DNA from: Armatimonadota bacterium
Lineage (GTDB): Bacteria > Armatimonadota > Zipacnadia > Zipacnadales > JABUFB01
Assembly (NCBI GenBank): GCA_013314775.1
Contig: JABUFB010000009.1
Coordinates: 1-64,000, forward strand
Length of the DNA stretch: 64,000 nucleotides
Direction: 5' to 3'
How positions within the stretch are numbered: the stretch's first letter is position 1; each line of letters opens with the position of its first letter. Positions 1-13,389 of the stretch are shown piece after piece. The notes below the pieces were generated by a model. That model saw only the letters and a program-made list of their open reading frames with translations, was not told the DNA's origin and did not search any database. Position numbers and translations under genes: made by a program.

Positions 1-105
1 GTGGCTGTGGCTAAGGCTTCTTTCAGACCCCGCCTCGCGGCGACGCCCTTGCCTTCGCTTAACGGTTACGGTCTCCGATACCGTAGAGGACTTCCACCTC
101 CGAGA

Positions 106-555
106 TCATGAACATGCCCGGCATACGAACACACCGCCGCGCACGGCGGCTTCGCGGTACAGCAGGACTTCCAGGCCCGGAAACGCAAACGGAACGATGA
201 CCTGGGGCGAGTCCGGCGGTAGATCGGGCTCGGGGAGAACAGTCAGTAGCCCAGTGCGGTCGGGAAGGACTTGGAGGACTCGGTCGAACTCAATGCCCTC
301 GCGCTCATTACCGTAACGCAGGTACAAAGAGCGGTCGTCGCCCACGAGGCTCCACACTTCCCGCCCTCGGAACAGCAGTGGCCTATTACCCGTGTCGGGA
401 AGGTTCCCGATCCGAACTTCGATATCGAGGTCCGGAGACTGTCCGTCCACGAGGAACCGGCTGTCCGGCTCGGGGCAGTGCAGCCTGACATGGGGTTGCA
501 CGGTCCAGGCCCGCGCGCTCATCCCGGCGATGCGGATCTGTAACTCATGCACCAT
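106..555 (-). CDS. HprK-like protein, N-terminal part only (probably truncated)
   Basis: 149 residues; ATG with GGAGG 11 nt upstream. No catalytic motif is present. The layout recalls the N-terminal part of HPr-kinase-related proteins that accompany small modified-peptide genes: short strand-like stretches (FRGREVWSL, SLYLRYG), then a helix LEVLLYREAAVRGG followed by VFV. At that point those proteins normally continue into VHAxG and a P-loop. Here the frame ends at CRACS, and none of the three minus-strand frames in the remaining 105 bases to the window edge encodes a P-loop. It therefore looks like a remnant or a frameshifted copy. It follows the peptide gene 757..903 on the same strand, with a terminator-like hairpin between. 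The family link is from remembered pattern only; it may simply be a hypothetical protein. Confidence 0.45.
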   Translation of the reverse strand: MVHELQIRIAGMSARAWTVQPHVRLHCPEPDSRFLVDGQSPDLDIEVRIGNLPDTGNRPLLFRGREVWSLVGDDRSLYLRYGNEREGIEFDRVLQVLPDRTGLLTVLPEPDLPPDSPQVIVPFAFPGLEVLLYREAAVRGGVFVCRACS

Positions 556-606
556 GGGCCGGACTGCCTCCGGGGGAATGATTCCCGCAACACTTCACGA
601 CCAATG

Positions 607-638
607 AAAACCGGTGCCACCTGAACGGGCAGCACCGG
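607..638 (-). terminator. Intra-operon terminator / attenuator
   Basis: On the minus strand a perfect 7-bp stem CCGGTGC / GCACCGG with a 14-nt loop is followed directly by TTTT. It lies between the peptide gene ending at 757 and the HprK-like gene starting at 555. A leaky terminator here would give more peptide than enzyme mRNA, as is common in precursor-peptide operons. Confidence 0.55.
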
Positions 639-756
639 GGTTATTACACGACAGGAGATGCGCACGAGCATACCCGCGCACATCTCGACCACCTACGTCT
701 CAACGGAAGCGGGAACTGTACCTAACCCGAAACCGAGAGACTACAGGATGGTTGCC

Positions 757-903
757 TTAGGAGCCCGCGGCAAACTCCTGGATACCGCCAGGCTGGCAGC
801 TCGGGAGCTGGACCGGCCCTACCATCTTGCACGCGGCCACGACTGCGTCTTCCGGGCGGATCGCGAAGCGCGACACGGTCGGCTTGACGTAAGTCTTCTT
901 CAT
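757..903 (-). CDS. Small YxxP-leader peptide, putative RiPP precursor
   Basis: 48 residues. The ATG at 903 is chosen over an in-frame ATG at 912 because GAGAGGG sits 9 nt before 903 but touches 912. The N-terminus MKKTYVKPTVSRFAIRPEDA is basic with a YxxP motif, like leaders bound by PqqD-type recognition domains; it continues VVAACK and ends in a Gly/Pro/Gln-rich tail with a second Cys (LPSCQPGG) and final AAGS. Such leader-plus-short-core layouts are typical of ribosomally made, modified peptides; YxxP leaders and HprK-like neighbours are known from lasso-peptide loci. There is no Thr at the usual lasso penultimate leader position and no cyclase or protease in view, so the class is unknown. 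It is preceded by a promoter and followed by an attenuator and an HprK-like gene. Confidence 0.6.
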   Translation of the reverse strand: MKKTYVKPTVSRFAIRPEDAVVAACKMVGPVQLPSCQPGGIQEFAAGS

Positions 904-912
904 AAGTGCCAT

Positions 913-1308
913 CCCTCTCGTTTCATCGGGAACAAAGTCCAGCCAAGTACATACCCGTCACCACGCATAACATTAGCATATACGCCTTCTCCATGCAAGA
1001 GACATTTGGTATCCAGGAGATAAAGGTTCACTAAAGATGTGCCGATAATATGCAGAGCGCTCGCGGATTGGGTCATAGCAGGCACACTGTCGCCTCTATC
1101 TTACGGAAGAATCCACGAATCACCCGAGGTAGATTTGATGCCTCGAGTGCCACGGACGCAACACCTGCACCTTCGTTACTTCGACCTAGCCCTTTGGCGC
1201 CCCCGATCCACCCGACTATTTGTCGCAACCAAAAGAAGGTCTTTCGGGGCCGTGAGAGAAATGAGCACGCAGCGGTTGCCGTCTCACGCTGACATGGGAG
1301 TGATCTCA
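913..1308. other. Divergent intergenic region
   Basis: About 400 bases between the peptide gene (minus) and the secreted protein (plus). Its left half is clearly more AT-rich than the surroundings and holds the predicted minus-strand promoter at 970..998. Open frames on both strands here have no ribosome binding site or recognisable product, and the plus-strand frame running into the secreted protein lacks coding character before 1309. I see no RNA gene. Confidence 0.5.
970..998 (-). promoter_or_regulatory. Predicted sigma-70 promoter of the peptide gene
   Basis: On the minus strand TTGCAT (998..993) and TAATGT (975..970) are separated by 17 nt, inside a locally AT-rich stretch. The expected transcript would start near 963, about 60 nt upstream of the peptide start codon at 903. 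Confidence 0.4.
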
Positions 1309-7174: not shown

Positions 7175-7241
7175 ACAACAATCTAATACGCATCTGCCCT
7201 CCTGCAGAGCGTGTGCCGCCGCAGCCGGCGCAAGCCGGCAA

Positions 7242-7281
7242 GCGAAAACCCCCATAGGCCCATGGCCGCGGGGGTTTTCGC
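7242..7281. terminator. Bidirectional rho-independent terminator
   Basis: A 12-bp perfect stem GCGAAAACCCCC / GGGGGTTTTCGC with a 16-nt loop. The stem itself supplies A and T runs on both strands. It sits between the convergent GX3 gene (plus) and the translin-like/oxidoreductase operon (minus) and can end both. Confidence 0.75.
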
Positions 7282-7300
7282 GTGTCTTCACTTTCGAGCA

Positions 7301-7936
7301 TCAGCCGCCGAGCTTGTCTTCCAGTTCCGCCAATCGCTCCTCCAGCCGTTTCTGCCGCAGAGCATTGGTCACATCACCCCTGGTCCTCTCCACAAACCCG
7401 CGAGCCGCATCGGACCGCCCGCGCAGCCCCAGGGAGATAGCGTTCGGATAGTCGAAGCCCATGATGAGATGGTAGATGTCATCCATGGCGGACAGGAACT
7501 GCTCGGCCCGCTCGATATTGTCCTCGCGGATCGAATCCAGCACATGCCTGCGGAACTCCCCTGCCGCTTCAGCCAGCCCATTTAGCCACGCCGCATCGTC
7601 CACGCCCAGTTCCTCAGGCCCCGGCAGTGGCTCATTCTGTATTGCCGCGATGGTGATCGCAGCCTCAGCGTACTCCTTCTGCGCATCCGTCACGAACCCG
7701 CCGTAGCGCAATTCGATGCAGCCATCCAGCGCCGCCACCATCTGCCGACACAACTCCGCCGCTTCCGCCAGACGCTCGTGGGCGCCCTCGATTTCCTTCC
7801 GGTGCACCCGCTTGATAGCTTCCGAGGACACCCGCACAACCTGTCGAGAGATCACATACGCTTTCTCCCGGCCCTCATCCAGCGTGTCGAAATGCTCGCG
7901 GATCCTCTCAGCGATCTGGTCGATGTTGTCGAGTAT
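7301..7936 (-). CDS. Translin-family protein, likely AUA start
   Basis: The first ATG (7855) gives 184 residues, but the reading frame and family-like sequence continue upstream: LDNIDQIAERIREHFDTLDE and REKAYVISRQVVRVSSEAI resemble the N-terminal helices of translins. A strong ribosome binding site, GGGAGGG, lies 6 nt before an in-frame ATA at 7936, 15 nt after the preceding stop, and no ATG/GTG/TTG lies between. I therefore start at ATA, giving 211 residues, close to usual translin size. The protein is all-helical and ends in a charged coiled coil. Translins bind RNA or single-stranded DNA and, with TRAX, form an endoribonuclease in eukaryotes; the role of bacterial homologues is unclear. 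Last gene of the oxidoreductase operon. Confidence 0.7.
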   Translation of the reverse strand: MLDNIDQIAERIREHFDTLDEGREKAYVISRQVVRVSSEAIKRVHRKEIEGAHERLAEAAELCRQMVAALDGCIELRYGGFVTDAQKEYAEAAITIAAIQNEPLPGPEELGVDDAAWLNGLAEAAGEFRRHVLDSIREDNIERAEQFLSAMDDIYHLIMGFDYPNAISLGLRGRSDAARGFVERTRGDVTNALRQKRLEERLAELEDKLGG

Positions 7937-7951
7937 GTCAGACCCTCCCTG

Positions 7952-8500
7952 CTATCCTGCCTTTTGTTGGGCCGCTTTGGCACCAGCCCTCAATGCCGCG
8001 GCGTTCATGGGAATCAGCTTGTGGTGGCGCTCGGGCAGCACCCTCGCCAGCGCGTCCACCGCATTCTCGATGAGTTGCGGCATCACAAGTTGCATCCAGG
8101 CCCCCGCCAGCACAAGGTTCACCACGCGCTCCGAACCCGTCTCACGGGCGATCGCGTTCGCATCGACTTCGACCACCCGAAGGTCATCCCGGCCTATCGG
8201 AGCCCTGCCCATCCCCACATTCAGCACCGCAATGCCGCCGGGCTCGATTTTCGGCGCGTACTGCTCGACGCACACCGGCGCCATGAGAATCGCGGCCTGC
8301 GGCCTGCCGACCACCGGACTGCCCACGCGACCATCAGCGACCACCAGCGTGCATTCCACCGAGCCCCCGCGGACTTCGGGCGAGTAACTGGGGAACCACG
8401 AGGTCTCCAGACCCGCTTCAATCGCGGCCTGGGCCAGCAGTTGCCCGGCCATCAGCACACCCTGGCCGCCGAGACCACTCATCAGCACATTGTGTCTCAT
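7952..8500 (-). CDS. korC: 2-oxoacid:ferredoxin oxidoreductase, gamma subunit
   Basis: 182 residues, typical for the separate gamma subunit. It begins NVLMSGLGGQGVLMAGQLLA, the conserved glycine-rich GxGGQG turn of the family, followed by SYSPEVRGG. The gamma domain helps hold CoA in enzymes that convert 2-oxoacids plus CoA to acyl-CoA, CO2 and reduced ferredoxin. Third of the oxidoreductase genes in transcription order after alpha and beta, with 4 nt to beta upstream and the translin-like gene downstream. The substrate (2-oxoglutarate or branched-chain 2-oxoacids) cannot be decided from sequence; the kor name is provisional. Confidence 0.9.
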   Translation of the reverse strand: MRHNVLMSGLGGQGVLMAGQLLAQAAIEAGLETSWFPSYSPEVRGGSVECTLVVADGRVGSPVVGRPQAAILMAPVCVEQYAPKIEPGGIAVLNVGMGRAPIGRDDLRVVEVDANAIARETGSERVVNLVLAGAWMQLVMPQLIENAVDALARVLPERHHKLIPMNAAALRAGAKAAQQKAG

Positions 8501-8504
8501 CGTT

Positions 8505-9323
8505 TCACTCAGTCCTGGTTGCGCCGCTGTCCGCCGAAGGCTTCTCAGCGTACGGGTCGCGGAAAACCTTCAAAGGGTACCGCGCGATCACTTCGGTCCG
8601 CACGTGCTCCAGCGCTTCTATGGGCGACATGTGCCAGCAGTGCGGGCAGGTGCTCAGGATTTCAACCAGCGAGAAGCCCAACCCGTCCAGTTGCGCCTGA
8701 AATGCTTTTCTCACAGCCTTCTGCGCGCGCATCACGTGCTTCGGGTCGATGGCCGTCTCGCGCGACAGGTACGCCACGCCGTCAATTTGGTCCAGGATAC
8801 GACAGACATCCAGCGGGAACCCGGCTTCGGCCACTGTGCGTCCGGCCGGGGTCGTCGTAGTCTTCTGGCCCAACAGTGTGGTTGGCGCCATCTGGCCGCG
8901 GGTCATCCCGAATACGCCGTTGTTGATGAAGATCACCGTGATGTTCTCAGCCCGGGTGGCCGCCTGAAGCACCTCGCCGAGCCCGATGGCTGCCAGGTCA
9001 CCGTCCCCCTGGTAGGTGAAGACCACGGCGTCCGGCCGTACACGCTTGATCCCCGTGGCCACCGCGGGTGCGCGCCCGTGAGCCGCCTGCACACTGTCCG
9101 TGTTGAAGTATTCGTAGGCATACACGGAGCAGCCCACCGAAGCCACCGCCACCGTGCGGTCGCGCACCCCCAGTTGATCAATGGTCTCAGCCACCAGCCG
9201 ATGCGCGATACCGTGGGTACATCCGGGGCAGTATCGCAGAGGGGTATCCGTGAGTGCCTCGGGGCACTCGTAGATCGGTTCTCCTCGCAGTTCTCGGTCT
9301 GTGTCGATTGTTGCCACGGTCAC
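8505..9323 (-). CDS. korB: 2-oxoacid:ferredoxin oxidoreductase, beta (TPP-binding) subunit
   Basis: 272 residues. It has the conserved YCPGCTHGIAHRL cysteine motif near residue 30 and the thiamine-diphosphate/Mg motif YQGDGDLAAIGLGE with downstream FINNGVFGMTRGQMAPTT, as in beta subunits of archaeal-type four-subunit enzymes. It forms the catalytic core with the alpha subunit. The gene lies between alpha and gamma on the minus strand. The enzyme points to ferredoxin-dependent, low-potential metabolism. Substrate specificity is open, as for the other subunits. Confidence 0.92.
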   Translation of the reverse strand: MTVATIDTDRELRGEPIYECPEALTDTPLRYCPGCTHGIAHRLVAETIDQLGVRDRTVAVASVGCSVYAYEYFNTDSVQAAHGRAPAVATGIKRVRPDAVVFTYQGDGDLAAIGLGEVLQAATRAENITVIFINNGVFGMTRGQMAPTTLLGQKTTTTPAGRTVAEAGFPLDVCRILDQIDGVAYLSRETAIDPKHVMRAQKAVRKAFQAQLDGLGFSLVEILSTCPHCWHMSPIEALEHVRTEVIARYPLKVFRDPYAEKPSADSGATRTE

Positions 9324-9359: not shown

Positions 9360-10421
9360 TCAACGGCCAAGGATCTCCACTACGTGGTCTAGCACGTCTT
9401 CCGGAGTGCAGACCACACCCCCGGTCCGTCCATAGTGGCTTACCGGGCAGAGGCCCTGGACGGAAAGCCGGATGTCTTCGATGAATTGCCCCAGCGACAG
9501 CTCCACCACCAGGCAGTGTTTCGCGCGCCCGGCGAGAGACCGGATCGCCTGATCCGGGAAAGGCACCAGCGAGATGGGACGAAACAGCTTCGCCGCGATA
9601 CCGCGCTCCAGACACCAGTCCACCACGGTCTCGCATACCCGGGCCATGATGCCGTAAGCGCACAGGACAATCTCCGGCTCCGGCGCCCCATACTCTTCCC
9701 ATCGGGTCAATTCCGCTTTCGCGCGGGCCAGCCGGTCCGCCATGCGCAGGTTCATCTGCTCCATGACTTCCAGATTGGTCCACAACGAGTTGACGATATG
9801 CCTGTCCCGGCCCTCAAGCCCGCCGCCGACCGTCCAGCCAAGTTGCCGCGCCAAGGGCGCATCCCCCACGGGCCGCAACAGACACGGCTCTCGCATCTGG
9901 CCGAGATACGCGTCTCCCAGCACCGTCACCGGCAACCGGAAACGCTCCGACAGCTCGAATGACTCGGCGGTAATGTCGTGGAGTTCCTGGACGCTATACG
10001 GCGCCAGCACCAGCGTGCTGCCGTCCCCGTGCCCGGCTCCGCGAGTCGTGATCCAGTAGTCGGACTGGGCCGCGCCGATATTCCCCAGGCCCGGGCCACC
10101 CCGGGCGATGTCCACCACTACTCCGGTGATCTCAGCCCCAAGCATGTAGGACAGGCCCTCCTGCATCAGCGAGATTCCCGGCGAGGAGGACGAGGTCATG
10201 ACCCTCGCGCCTGCCGCCGCCGCGCCGTAGACCATATTGATCGCGGCGACTTCGCTTTCGGCCTGGAGGTAGATGCCGCCCACCTGGGGCATGCGCCACG
10301 ACATGTACTCCGGAATCTGACTCTGGGGCGTAATCGGGTAGCCGAAGAACGCTCGACAACCGCCGGCGATAGCGCCCTCCGCCACCGCCTCATTGCCCTC
10401 CATCAGGACGCGTTCACTCAC
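9360..10421 (-). CDS. korA: 2-oxoacid:ferredoxin oxidoreductase, alpha subunit
   Basis: 353 residues from a GTG at 10421 that overlaps the ferredoxin stop as GTGA. Upstream in-frame sequence has no family character and overlaps the ferredoxin gene. Conserved blocks: LMEGNEAVAEGAIAGGCRAF then GYPITPQSQIPEYM, LQAESEVAAINMVYGAAAAG, TSSSSPGISLMQEGLSYMLG, and RGGPGLGNIGAAQSDY, typical of separate alpha subunits of the VorB/KorA type. It pairs with the TPP-binding beta subunit. Gene order ferredoxin-alpha-beta-gamma is the usual one for these four-subunit enzymes. Confidence 0.92.
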   Translation of the reverse strand: MSERVLMEGNEAVAEGAIAGGCRAFFGYPITPQSQIPEYMSWRMPQVGGIYLQAESEVAAINMVYGAAAAGARVMTSSSSPGISLMQEGLSYMLGAEITGVVVDIARGGPGLGNIGAAQSDYWITTRGAGHGDGSTLVLAPYSVQELHDITAESFELSERFRLPVTVLGDAYLGQMREPCLLRPVGDAPLARQLGWTVGGGLEGRDRHIVNSLWTNLEVMEQMNLRMADRLARAKAELTRWEEYGAPEPEIVLCAYGIMARVCETVVDWCLERGIAAKLFRPISLVPFPDQAIRSLAGRAKHCLVVELSLGQFIEDIRLSVQGLCPVSHYGRTGGVVCTPEDVLDHVVEILGR

Positions 10422-10648
10422 GGGGTCTTCGCCTCTTCCGGGGAGACTCGGTACAGGGCAATCGCCACGGCGGGACACATAAGCACGCACAGCTTGCAGC
10501 CGGTGCAGGCGTCCTCCGTCGTGGGCTGCACTGGGTACACGCCCCGCTCATTGATCTGTTCCGAAAGCGCCAGGTTGTGCCTGGGGCAGACTTCCACGCA
10601 CAGACCGCACCCCATGCAGCGCTTGCCGTCGATGACTACCTTGACCAT
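10418..10648 (-). CDS. korD: 2x[4Fe-4S] ferredoxin subunit of the 2-oxoacid oxidoreductase
   Basis: 76 residues starting at MVKVVID (10648); a longer frame adds 11 residues without family character. Two cluster motifs are clear: CMGCGLCVEVCP and CTGCKLCVLMCP, each CxxCxxCxxxCP. It carries electrons from the TPP site to external ferredoxin. First gene of the operon, about 30 nt after recN and coupled to alpha by a GTGA overlap. It may therefore also be transcribed from the long housekeeping operon upstream. Confidence 0.9.
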   Translation of the reverse strand: MVKVVIDGKRCMGCGLCVEVCPRHNLALSEQINERGVYPVQPTTEDACTGCKLCVLMCPAVAIALYRVSPEEAKTP

Positions 10649-10677
10649 GGATGCACCTGCGAACCGCGCCGCGCAAA

Positions 10678-12435
10678 TCATCCGGCGCGCTGGTTTGCCC
10701 CCAGTCTCTCGCGTAAGCTTTTCGCATCTTCCAACATCTTCTCGGCATGCCCGCGAGCGGCCTCGTCCGTCTCCGCTCCTCCGAGCATCCGGGCAAGCTC
10801 AGCAACTCTCTCGGCTTCGTCCAGCACCTCCGCGCTCACCACCGTGCGCCCGGATCGCACCGCCTTGCTCACGTGAATATGGGTATCCGCCAAGCGCGCG
10901 ATCTGCGGCAGGTGGGTCACGCACAATACCTGTGCCGCTGCCGACAGGCTCACCAGCCTCTCACCCACCGCGTGTGCCACCCTGCCTCCGATACCCGCGT
11001 CCACCTCGTCGAATACAATCGTCGGGATCTCCGCGCCCCGGGTGCAAATGGTCTTGAGCACCAACATCAAGCGGGAGAGTTCGCCACCGGAAGCCACCTT
11101 GCTCAGGGGCCGCAGTGCCTCGCCCGCATTCGCACTGAACAGGAACCGCACGTTGTCAATGCCTCGCGAGGTCGCCCGATAACGCCTGCCGTCAGCACTC
11201 AGCACCCCATCCGGGTGCTCCTCCCGCGACAGCTCCAACTCCAGCCGTGGCGCGTCCATCCCAAGGCCTTTGAGGTCCCGGGTGACCGTCTTGGCCAGTT
11301 GCCCGGACAGCTTGGCCCTGCTCGCCGAAAGCTGGTCCGCAAGCACACCAGCTTGCCGCCTGGCTTCTTCCGCCTCGGCTCGCAGTTGTTCCTCCCGGCT
11401 TTCCAGGTTCTCAAGACCGTCCAGTTTCGCACGCGCCTCTTCAAGGAACGCCAGGACGTCGGCGATGCTATCCCCGTACTTGCGCTTCAGCGTGGACAGT
11501 TCGGCCAGCCGCGTTTCGATCTTCTCCAGCCTGTCCGGATCCGCGTCGAGGCCGTCCAGCATCTGTCGCAGCGACCGGGCGGTCTCCTGCAATGACACCG
11601 CCGCATTTGCGAGCTCCGCCGCCAGTGGCTCCAGCTCCGGATCGAACCGCGCCACGGTGCGCACATGATGCTCCGCAGCCTGGGTCGCGGCCAGTGCCGC
11701 CGGAACCCCATCCGCGTCCCCGTCCAGCAGGTCTCTCGCCGTCGTAAGCGCTTCCCGCAGCTTCTCGGCGTGCTGCAAACGGGCCTTCTCCGCCGAAAGG
11801 GCTTCGTCCTCTCCCGCTTCTACTCGCGCCTCCTCAATCTCGCGCACCTGGAATCGCAGCATGTCCTGGCGCTGCGCCCGTTCTCTCTCGTCCATACGCA
11901 ATTGCCGCAGCGCCTCGAGGGCGGTGTGGTAGCGTCCAAAAGCCTCGGCATACCGCGCCCGCAACTCGAGGTGCTCGGCACCGCCAAAAGCATCCAGAAA
12001 CGCCAGGTGGTTCTCTTCGTGGAAGAGCGTCTGGTGCTCGTGCTGGCCGTGAATGTCCACAAGGTGCCGACCGATATCCTGCAGTACCGACAGCGTCGAT
12101 GGTCGGCGGTTGATGCGGTACGAACTGCGCCCACTGGCGATCTCCCGGCTGAGGATCACCAGCGTCTCGTCACCATCTCGCAGCCCAGCCTCATCCAGAT
12201 CCTGCAAGGCACGGGGGCAGTCAGCAGCATCGAAGACCGCCTCCACCCTCGCGGTCTTCTCGCCGCTGCGTATTGCGTCCGATCCAACGCGCTCGCCGAG
12301 TACCGCATTGAGCGCGTCGATGATAATCGACTTACCCGCTCCGGTCTCCCCCGTGAGCACCGTGAATCCAGCCCCCGGGCGGAGCGTCAGCGACTCAATG
12401 AGCGCGAGGTTCTCGATGGTCAGTTCGTGTAGCAT
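10678..12435 (-). CDS. recN: DNA repair protein RecN
   Basis: 585 residues, usual size. SMC-like ATPase acting in double-strand-break repair. The N-terminal Walker A is GETGAGKS near residue 32, a long coiled-coil region lies at about 150-370, the ABC signature is ASGGELSRLMLVLK near 445, and Walker B is TIVFDEVDAGIGG near 470. It follows nadK with a 30-nt gap, as in Firmicutes, where argR often lies between the two; no argR is present here. Start ATG with the expected MLHELTIENLALIE. Confidence 0.96.
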   Translation of the reverse strand: MLHELTIENLALIESLTLRPGAGFTVLTGETGAGKSIIIDALNAVLGERVGSDAIRSGEKTARVEAVFDAADCPRALQDLDEAGLRDGDETLVILSREIASGRSSYRINRRPSTLSVLQDIGRHLVDIHGQHEHQTLFHEENHLAFLDAFGGAEHLELRARYAEAFGRYHTALEALRQLRMDERERAQRQDMLRFQVREIEEARVEAGEDEALSAEKARLQHAEKLREALTTARDLLDGDADGVPAALAATQAAEHHVRTVARFDPELEPLAAELANAAVSLQETARSLRQMLDGLDADPDRLEKIETRLAELSTLKRKYGDSIADVLAFLEEARAKLDGLENLESREEQLRAEAEEARRQAGVLADQLSASRAKLSGQLAKTVTRDLKGLGMDAPRLELELSREEHPDGVLSADGRRYRATSRGIDNVRFLFSANAGEALRPLSKVASGGELSRLMLVLKTICTRGAEIPTIVFDEVDAGIGGRVAHAVGERLVSLSAAAQVLCVTHLPQIARLADTHIHVSKAVRSGRTVVSAEVLDEAERVAELARMLGGAETDEAARGHAEKMLEDAKSLRERLGANQRAG

Positions 12436-12465
12436 CCCGTGCCGTCACGCACCGTTGGCGAGGGC

Positions 12466-13389
12466 TTACCGTTCTGCATCCCAGTGGAGTTTCGTGCGCA
12501 GTCGCTCGAAGAAGCTGCCGGCTGCCACGCGCACCAATCGCGCGGCGAATGGAGCCCGATAAACGCGAACCAGGTCCCCCGGCTGCAGATCAACGACGTC
12601 CTGACCATCCAGCGTCACACTCACATCGGCCGCCGGCTTTCCCCGCCGCCATGCAGTGACTTCAATCACCGCCGTTGGCTCCACCACAACGGGCCGCGTA
12701 TAGAGAGTGTGCGAGCAGATCGGGGCAATCAGGAGTGACTCCACCGCAGGCGACACGATCGGCCCGCCCGCCGATAGGCTGTAGGCAGTCGAACCGGTGG
12801 GAGTGCTGATGATCAGACCGTCCGCCGGGTAAGTCGCCATGTGTTCTCCGTTCACCCGGGTGAACAGATGGACCAGGTGCCCCACCGTGCTGCTGGCGAT
12901 GACCGCCTCATTGAGCCCGTAGTACTCCCCCACCACTTCTCCCGCGCGCAACACGGTGGCCGCGACCATCAGCCGGTTCTCGGTGGCGAAGTCGCCCGCG
13001 ATGATGCGGTCCAGGTTGTCAAGCAGCGTCGAAAACGTCTCGGCGGCGAGGAAACCGAAGCTCCCAAGGTCGATACCCAGCAGGGGGGTGCCGCGAGGCC
13101 CGGCCTCGCGCGCCACAGCCAGGAGAGTGCCATCGCCGCCCAAGGAAATGACCAGGTCTGCCGCGGCCAATTCCGAGAAGCGCACCAGCCGGCACTGAAC
13201 TCCCGCGCACTCACTGAGGTCCGCGGCGTCGGGGCCCAGCAGTATCTGGCAGCCTGCCTCGCCAAGTGCCCGGCACAGCTTGAGCGCGCACGTGTGGACC
13301 TCGGCCTTATGGTGCGCGGTCGCGATGCCGATCGTCCGCAAGGGCTTGCTCACGGCGCCAACCGTCTCCCTGTCGGGCGGCGTCTCCAT
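12466..13389 (-). CDS. nadK: NAD kinase
   Basis: 307 residues. Phosphorylates NAD to NADP. The catalytic GGDGT motif is in LVISLGGDGTLLAVARE, the second conserved block is TPTGSTAYSLSAGGPIV, and NE of the family appears as GLNEAVIAS. The start codon ATG shares one base with the stop of the upstream TPR gene. The sequence before LRTIGIATAHHK is about 17 residues longer than usual, so a later start is possible but none stands out. Part of the conserved dxs-nadK-recN series. Confidence 0.95.
   Translation of the reverse strand: METPPDRETVGAVSKPLRTIGIATAHHKAEVHTCALKLCRALGEAGCQILLGPDAADLSECAGVQCRLVRFSELAAADLVISLGGDGTLLAVAREAGPRGTPLLGIDLGSFGFLAAETFSTLLDNLDRIIAGDFATENRLMVAATVLRAGEVVGEYYGLNEAVIASSTVGHLVHLFTRVNGEHMATYPADGLIISTPTGSTAYSLSAGGPIVSPAVESLLIAPICSHTLYTRPVVVEPTAVIEVTAWRRGKPAADVSVTLDGQDVVDLQPGDLVRVYRAPFAARLVRVAAGSFFERLRTKLHWDAER

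Follow-up and report, generated by a model that had tools for sequence, protein, structure and literature searches.

The left edge of the stretch of DNA analysed here (the window, made up of the initial 64 kb of contig C9 in G000, a 6.1-Mb genome in 37 contigs) probably carries one half of a RiPP pathway, comprising the precursor, kinase and protease genes, with the other half located elsewhere in the same genome. The left edge of the window is also the end of the contig. The encoded peptide is very probably chemically modified after its synthesis. The features concerned are the following.

Positions 757..903, minus strand: RiPP precursor peptide gene, 48 aa, MKKTYVKPTVSRFAIRPEDAVVAACKMVGPVQLPSCQPGGIQEFAAGS, based on open reading frame and conservation.
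Positions 913..919, minus strand: Shine-Dalgarno-like GAGAGGG, 9 nt before ATG903, read from the sequence.
Positions 611..638, minus strand: terminator-like hairpin (attenuator) between the peptide and kinase genes, 11 bp stem, TTTT tail.
Positions 127..555, minus strand: 5' exon (143 codons) of a gene for an HprK-like peptide kinase, whose 3' exon lies at G000:C21:128-580(+).
Positions 1..126, minus strand: start (5' end) of a ~1.86-kb group II intron that lies within the kinase gene and runs in its sense; the assembly is broken at this point.

The peptide proposed in the preliminary description is real, as its reading frame is kept in the relatives G001, G002 and G003. That description had named the absence of homologous peptides near HprK-like genes elsewhere as a point against it; such peptides are present in other phyla. 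The precursor consists of a leader with the motif YVKP, a conserved first Cys (C25), a second Cys and the C-terminal end AGS, and both Cys are kept in G001 and G002. YVKP agrees with the proposed YxxP leader of the PqqD-binding kind, and [YW]xxP is common to the related precursors. Pfam and NCBIfam scans gave no match for the peptide. Another in-frame start codon, ATG912, has no Shine-Dalgarno motif at such a distance and, in G002, lies out of frame. In the comparison with G002, a dN/dS of 0.13 over residues 2-36 indicates purifying selection on the leader; the ratio against the closest relative is 0.61, with few changes. In a comparison with G001 (window:757-903 against L050:464-610), the peptide gene has a dS of 0.15 and the adjoining kinase part 0.80, as if the former had been subject to DNA-level constraint or recent exchange. 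The suggested terminator within the operon was borne out by the hairpin at 638..611(-), which has a folding energy of -20.9 kcal/mol (z = -4.7). Every change in the G001 hairpin is confined to the loop, leaving the stem conserved, and G002 has no hairpin. A promoter of its own had also been attributed to the peptide gene, and this found no support in a sigma-70 promoter scan, which gave 0 sites.

The kinase gene is interrupted by the group II intron. The open reading frame at 106..555(-) enters the intron at 126, so only 127..555 represents kinase coding sequence. Window bases 1 to ~130 also occur at the ends of C1, C2 and C10 and within C5, where a complete intron copy of 1862 nt is located (L012:1520-3381); it matches domains I-IV and encodes an intact RT-maturase (TIGR04416 417 bits, GIIM). 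Domains V and VI match RF00029 with 42.0 bits against a cut-off of 40 (L023:57-127), a match obtained with the C21 end, which has this sequence in common with the C5 copy. This match ends exactly at C21:127, and exon 2 begins at C21:128 with CTG CAC GGG. The intron is thus inserted after kinase codon 143, in phase 0 and in the same sense as the gene. The joined exons read ...REAAVRGGVF up to the junction and LHGSGLEFEGFGCLFCGLSGAGKST... beyond it, giving 293 codons with no stop and no frameshift. The start of C21 supplies the missing half of the kinase with the catalytic His, P-loop and DD; Hpr_kinase_C is the top-ranking match there, yet below its cut-off. Among four contig edges bearing intron 3' ends, C21 alone continues as HprK and the other three do not. 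The assembly at the C9 and C21 edges holds ~126 nt of each intron end, while the interior of the copy in the kinase gene is unassembled. In G002, the same gene order is found without the intron on a single contig, which provides independent support for the C9-C21 bridge. Based on these sequence comparisons, the two kinase halves most likely belong to one gene split by the intron, which would be spliced from the kinase mRNA.

The intron resembles known group II introns (RF00029, RF02001, RF01998, TIGR04416) in its domain I-IV and V/VI matches and in the intact RT-maturase of the C5 copy, but the copy described here is inserted into a gene of a biosynthetic pathway and has the same sense. The two copies examined in detail, in C5 (L012:1490-1520) and in the kinase gene (window:127-150), each directly follow a hairpin, which is terminator-like in C5 and coding in the kinase gene. 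Additionally, all 5/5 intron 5' exons end in TTC or TCC.

Owing to the divergence of the N-terminal half of the kinase, Pfam and NCBIfam scans gave no match for the portion within the window. The first half of an HprK-like protein that the preliminary description recognised is nevertheless genuine kinase coding sequence. In the alignment, the kinase keeps the H, G, K, S/T and DD residues; in the lasso kinase BsfK, His, the P-loop Gly/Lys/Ser and two Asp are important (PMC10368454). Its C-terminal domain is predicted by AlphaFold and structure comparison to adopt an HPrK/PEPCK fold. The model of residues 1-138 is poor (pLDDT under 50), and thus no structural claim is made for the N-terminal half. 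The G002 kinase has a 100%-identical copy on JALGSS010000052.1 (Candidatus Zipacnadia bacterium), which helps to place G000 in the class Candidatus Zipacnadia of the Armatimonadota; G001 is of the same genus as G000.

The operon gene after the kinase, with a 4-base overlap, encodes a 352-aa protein in which an S26/SipW-like peptidase is fused to a GNAT acetyltransferase, and a convergent gene beyond it closes the operon. The expected leftward continuation of the system therefore holds for the rest of the kinase and the S26-GNAT protein; it does not hold for a PqqD or B protein, and the operon contains neither a radical SAM (rSAM) enzyme nor an RRE. The S26 Ser, His and Asp are aligned across 8 proteins, and a Ser-His-Asp triad has been tested in the leader peptidase LppS (PMC13381572). 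TIGR02228 scores above cut-off in G010, 42 bits in G003 (cut-off 51.85) and 13 bits in the window protein, whose S26 domain alone is below family cut-offs. This domain has no strong hydrophobic segment. The predicted model of the fusion protein matches mainly GNAT folds, including RimI and NatC, and one LexA-like S24 structure is matched by its N-terminal domain. N-terminal acetyltransferases are among the structural matches of the modelled GNAT domain; its acetylation of the N-terminus exposed by leader removal is purely a guess. Among the loci scanned, the S26-GNAT fusion is found only in the family of the window.

The other half of the pathway is indicated by the relative G003, in which six adjacent genes encode an NTP-transferase (PF14907), PqqD, a radical SAM/SPASM enzyme, the precursor, an HprK-like kinase and S26-GNAT. 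In G000, an NTP-transferase, PqqD and rSAM lie together on C6 (L081:7974-10677), with identities of 35%, 59% and 46%, respectively, to their G003 counterparts. The same trio lies on a contig without the precursor in G001, and is broken over two contigs in G002, in which the gene order around the precursor is PQQ-propeller, S26-GNAT, HprK, peptide, CBM6-type gene and DUF2330-type gene. The joined cassette of G003 and the split arrangement of G000-G002 thus demonstrate two-locus splitting for the peptide family of the window. Beside the C6 trio of G000, no peptide showing the leader pattern of the precursors was noticed, and we infer that the C6 enzymes act in trans on the window peptide. As the rSAM enzyme is unlinked in G000-G002, its action on this peptide is proposed by analogy with G003. 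The chemistry of the enzyme is unpredictable, since none of its best NCBIfam scores comes near the cut-off.

Another PqqD of G000, on C8, is disfavoured as the cognate RRE, having 30% identity to the G003 RRE compared to 59% for the C6 PqqD. C8 carries a second cassette in L085 (G000:C8:1058000-1073000), where positions 7222-9315(-) encode a WxxP-type peptide MKWSKPVVKSYKEKELLAKLAAKAQTHEDGHLDQ, an HprK-like ORF, an S24/S26-like protein and PqqD. Nearby genes encode an NTP-transferase (11590-12786) and, within 10234-12546, a radical SAM protein of the SPASM type. The rSAM-like match at L085:10234-12546 was rejected as a part of the window system, being this separate SPASM protein. The presence of both YxxP and WxxP precursors in G000 recalls the LPP/paeninodin pair. 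In G003, a second, Cys-less precursor (L048:2744-2881) lies beside a kinase and an NTP-transferase with no local rSAM, and is possibly a phospho-only paralogue.

Related cassettes are found in many phyla. A genome-collection scan with the kinase, using three close sequences as query, yielded 74 loci. With G002's own locus left out, PqqD was found in 62/73 and rSAM in 55/73 HprK loci on the same strand within 3 kb; these counts come from home-made profiles built from members of the same cassette kind, and thus express resemblance rather than curated family membership. In the alignment, [YW]xxP and an almost invariant first Cys are common to the precursors located close to the kinase. Fifteen of 21 precursors have a C-terminal Ser, all as [GA]S, and the other six end otherwise; among small ORFs of the same loci, 11% end in Ser and 1.9% in [GA]S. 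Precursor candidates were chosen by position and YxxP instead of the C-terminus, and the 21 were then picked by eye for leader type, with Clostridia MYQSPDL-type peptides, which lack a final Ser, assigned to another branch and left out. Four of the 21 belong to the window's own family, and 12/18 end in Ser when the closest relatives are collapsed. Owing to the selection by eye and this family share, binomial values for the Ser excess serve only as a guide. One locus, L124, has an rSAM gene and a Cys-less precursor. In L145, L146, L161 and L166 (Clostridia/Ruminococcaceae MAGs), HprK-PqqD fusions are followed by a radical SAM gene; the MYQSPDL-type precursors of this separate branch contain Cys and have no Ser end. 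In an Omnitrophota cassette (L119:5882-7468), S26 and NTP-transferase matches occur in one ORF, apparently fused.

Gene order, conservation, the intron position and the open frame across the exon junction come from the sequence itself, and all the chemistry that we infer for the pathway would proceed as follows. The hairpin after the peptide gene would keep peptide mRNA above kinase mRNA, and the group II intron would leave the kinase mRNA in phase 0, restoring a 293-aa HprK-like kinase. The PqqD-type RRE of C6 would bind the YxxP leader and hand the peptide to the neighbouring radical SAM/SPASM enzyme, which would modify the Cys-bearing core. Subsequently, the HprK-like kinase would phosphorylate the terminal Ser of [GA]S-COOH, adding a phosphate that may then be decorated by the PF14907 NTP-transferase. 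The soluble S26/SipW-like Ser-His-Asp domain would cut off the leader, and the fused GNAT domain may acetylate the new N-terminus. The conserved [GA]S end fits the phosphorylation of a C-terminal Ser by earlier lasso kinases (PMC10368454, citing Zhu 2016 and Zyubko 2019).

A rather unlikely alternative is an LPP-like linear phosphopeptide made without an rSAM step, by the kinase and S26 only, with an RRE from C6 or C8 acting in trans and the C6 rSAM serving another substrate. The operon indeed holds only precursor, kinase and protease, LPP needs only an RRE, a kinase, SpI and an NTP-transferase (PMC13381572), and the Cys-less L048 precursor of G003 has no rSAM nearby. However, both Cys are retained in G001 and G002, the C6 trio is the counterpart of the one adjoining the same peptide class in G003, and no precursor of the leader pattern was seen beside it in G000. 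It is also conceivable, with quite a low probability, that the locus is decaying, the intron inactivating the kinase through inefficient splicing and the peptide being a relic. An intron inside a conserved enzyme domain and an operon without rSAM or RRE would suit such decay. The sense, phase 0 insertion with its continuous 293-codon frame does not suit it, nor do the structured intron ends matching Rfam models, the intact maturase ORF of the C5 copy and the purifying selection on the leader relative to G002.

That this is a lasso peptide locus like those of paeninodin and Bsf is extremely improbable, although phosphorylated lasso peptides also have a YxxP leader, an HprK-like kinase, an NTP-transferase and a C-terminal Ser. 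The genes read in the operon and in the G001-G003 neighbourhoods include no recognisable macrolactam cyclase or B2 protease. Moreover, Cys is the element conserved in the core, and there is no evident core start followed by Asp/Glu at ring position 7-9. The peptide alignment, in which the cleavage site is not fixed, conserves no arrangement of Thr (or Ile/Val) at leader position -2 ahead of such a core. The lasso precursor is hence disfavoured, with neither a cyclase nor a lasso-like core seen, in agreement with the preliminary description. The proposed kinase does resemble those of paeninodin and Bsf (PMC10368454) as an RRE-assisted HprK-like peptide kinase with H, P-loop GxxGxGKS/T and DD, and the paeninodin types phosphorylate a C-terminal Ser, which the [GA]S end resembles; the substrate class is different, and lasso cyclase and B2 protease were not seen here.

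The split pathway most likely works like LPP with an added radical SAM step. LPP (linear polyphosphorylated peptides; Nat Commun 2026, PMC13381572) combines HprK-like, S26/SpI, RRE and NTP-transferase proteins with YxxP precursors of the consensus YxxPxVLxHQxIxFETxxS, core Ser3 being the phosphorylation site, and is said to be restricted to Bacillota. Both systems have YxxP in a small precursor (here YVKP), an HprK-like kinase in the cluster, an archaeal-type/SipW-like SpI leader peptidase with Ser-His-Asp, and a discrete RRE and NTP-transferase without a cyclase, the latter two being on C6 and in the G003 cluster here. In contrast to LPP, the window operon lacks the RRE and NTP-transferase, its precursor YVKPTVSRFAIRPEDAVVAAC lacks HQ and FETxxS, and in place of the LPP core pattern there are a conserved Cys and a C-terminal [GA]S. 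Furthermore, the cassette includes a PqqD-linked radical SAM/SPASM enzyme, the peptidase carries a fused GNAT domain, no MsbA-like transporter was seen, and the genes are spread over two loci in the phylum Armatimonadota. Since the window precursor departs from the consensus and its operon has no RRE, the system is not filed as LPP. The claim of an undescribed peptide-modification system stands as regards a RiPP-type locus; 'undescribed' was too strong in view of LPP. PMC13381572 describes neither the rSAM branch nor the GNAT fusion, nor an occurrence in Armatimonadota.

A literature search, with subscription papers outside its scope, returned no 'SynChlorMet', no radical SAM with RiPP and HprK, and no radical SAM with PqqD and HPr. 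Within the literature searchable, the combination of rSAM, HprK, S26 and NTP-transferase with a conserved C-terminal [GA]S, a split pathway, a GNAT fusion and an intron-interrupted kinase is novel. The SynChlorMet (SCM) cassette was reportedly described by Haft and Basu in 2011. With this cassette (TIGR04248-TIGR04251), the system shares an HprK-like protein (ScmC being the best NCBIfam match of the kinase), the PqqD-like ScmD and the radical SAM/SPASM ScmE/ScmF. However, ScmC scored 33 vs 125 bits and ScmF 74-84 vs 400 (equivalog cut-offs), with the SCM PqqD/rSAM models scored on G010 and G003 proteins, and one rSAM together with S26 and an NTP-transferase is present here. As every SCM model was below cut-off, the system is not filed as SCM.

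Tentatively, these cassettes may form a RiPP family of their own that spans phyla. A single precursor would receive both an rSAM change at the conserved Cys and (poly)phosphorylation of the conserved C-terminal [GA]S, and a soluble S26 protease would remove its leader. Zipacnadia would be distinguished by two loci, N-acetylation by the protease-GNAT protein and a kinase dependent on intron splicing. Such a gene cluster can be hidden by a repeated intron that the assembly leaves unresolved and by the division of the pathway, as neither half alone resembles a complete RiPP cluster. The conserved C-terminal [GA]S offers a directly testable kinase site. If this reading is true, HprK/SpI-type RiPPs would reach far beyond Bacillota and merge with radical SAM chemistry.
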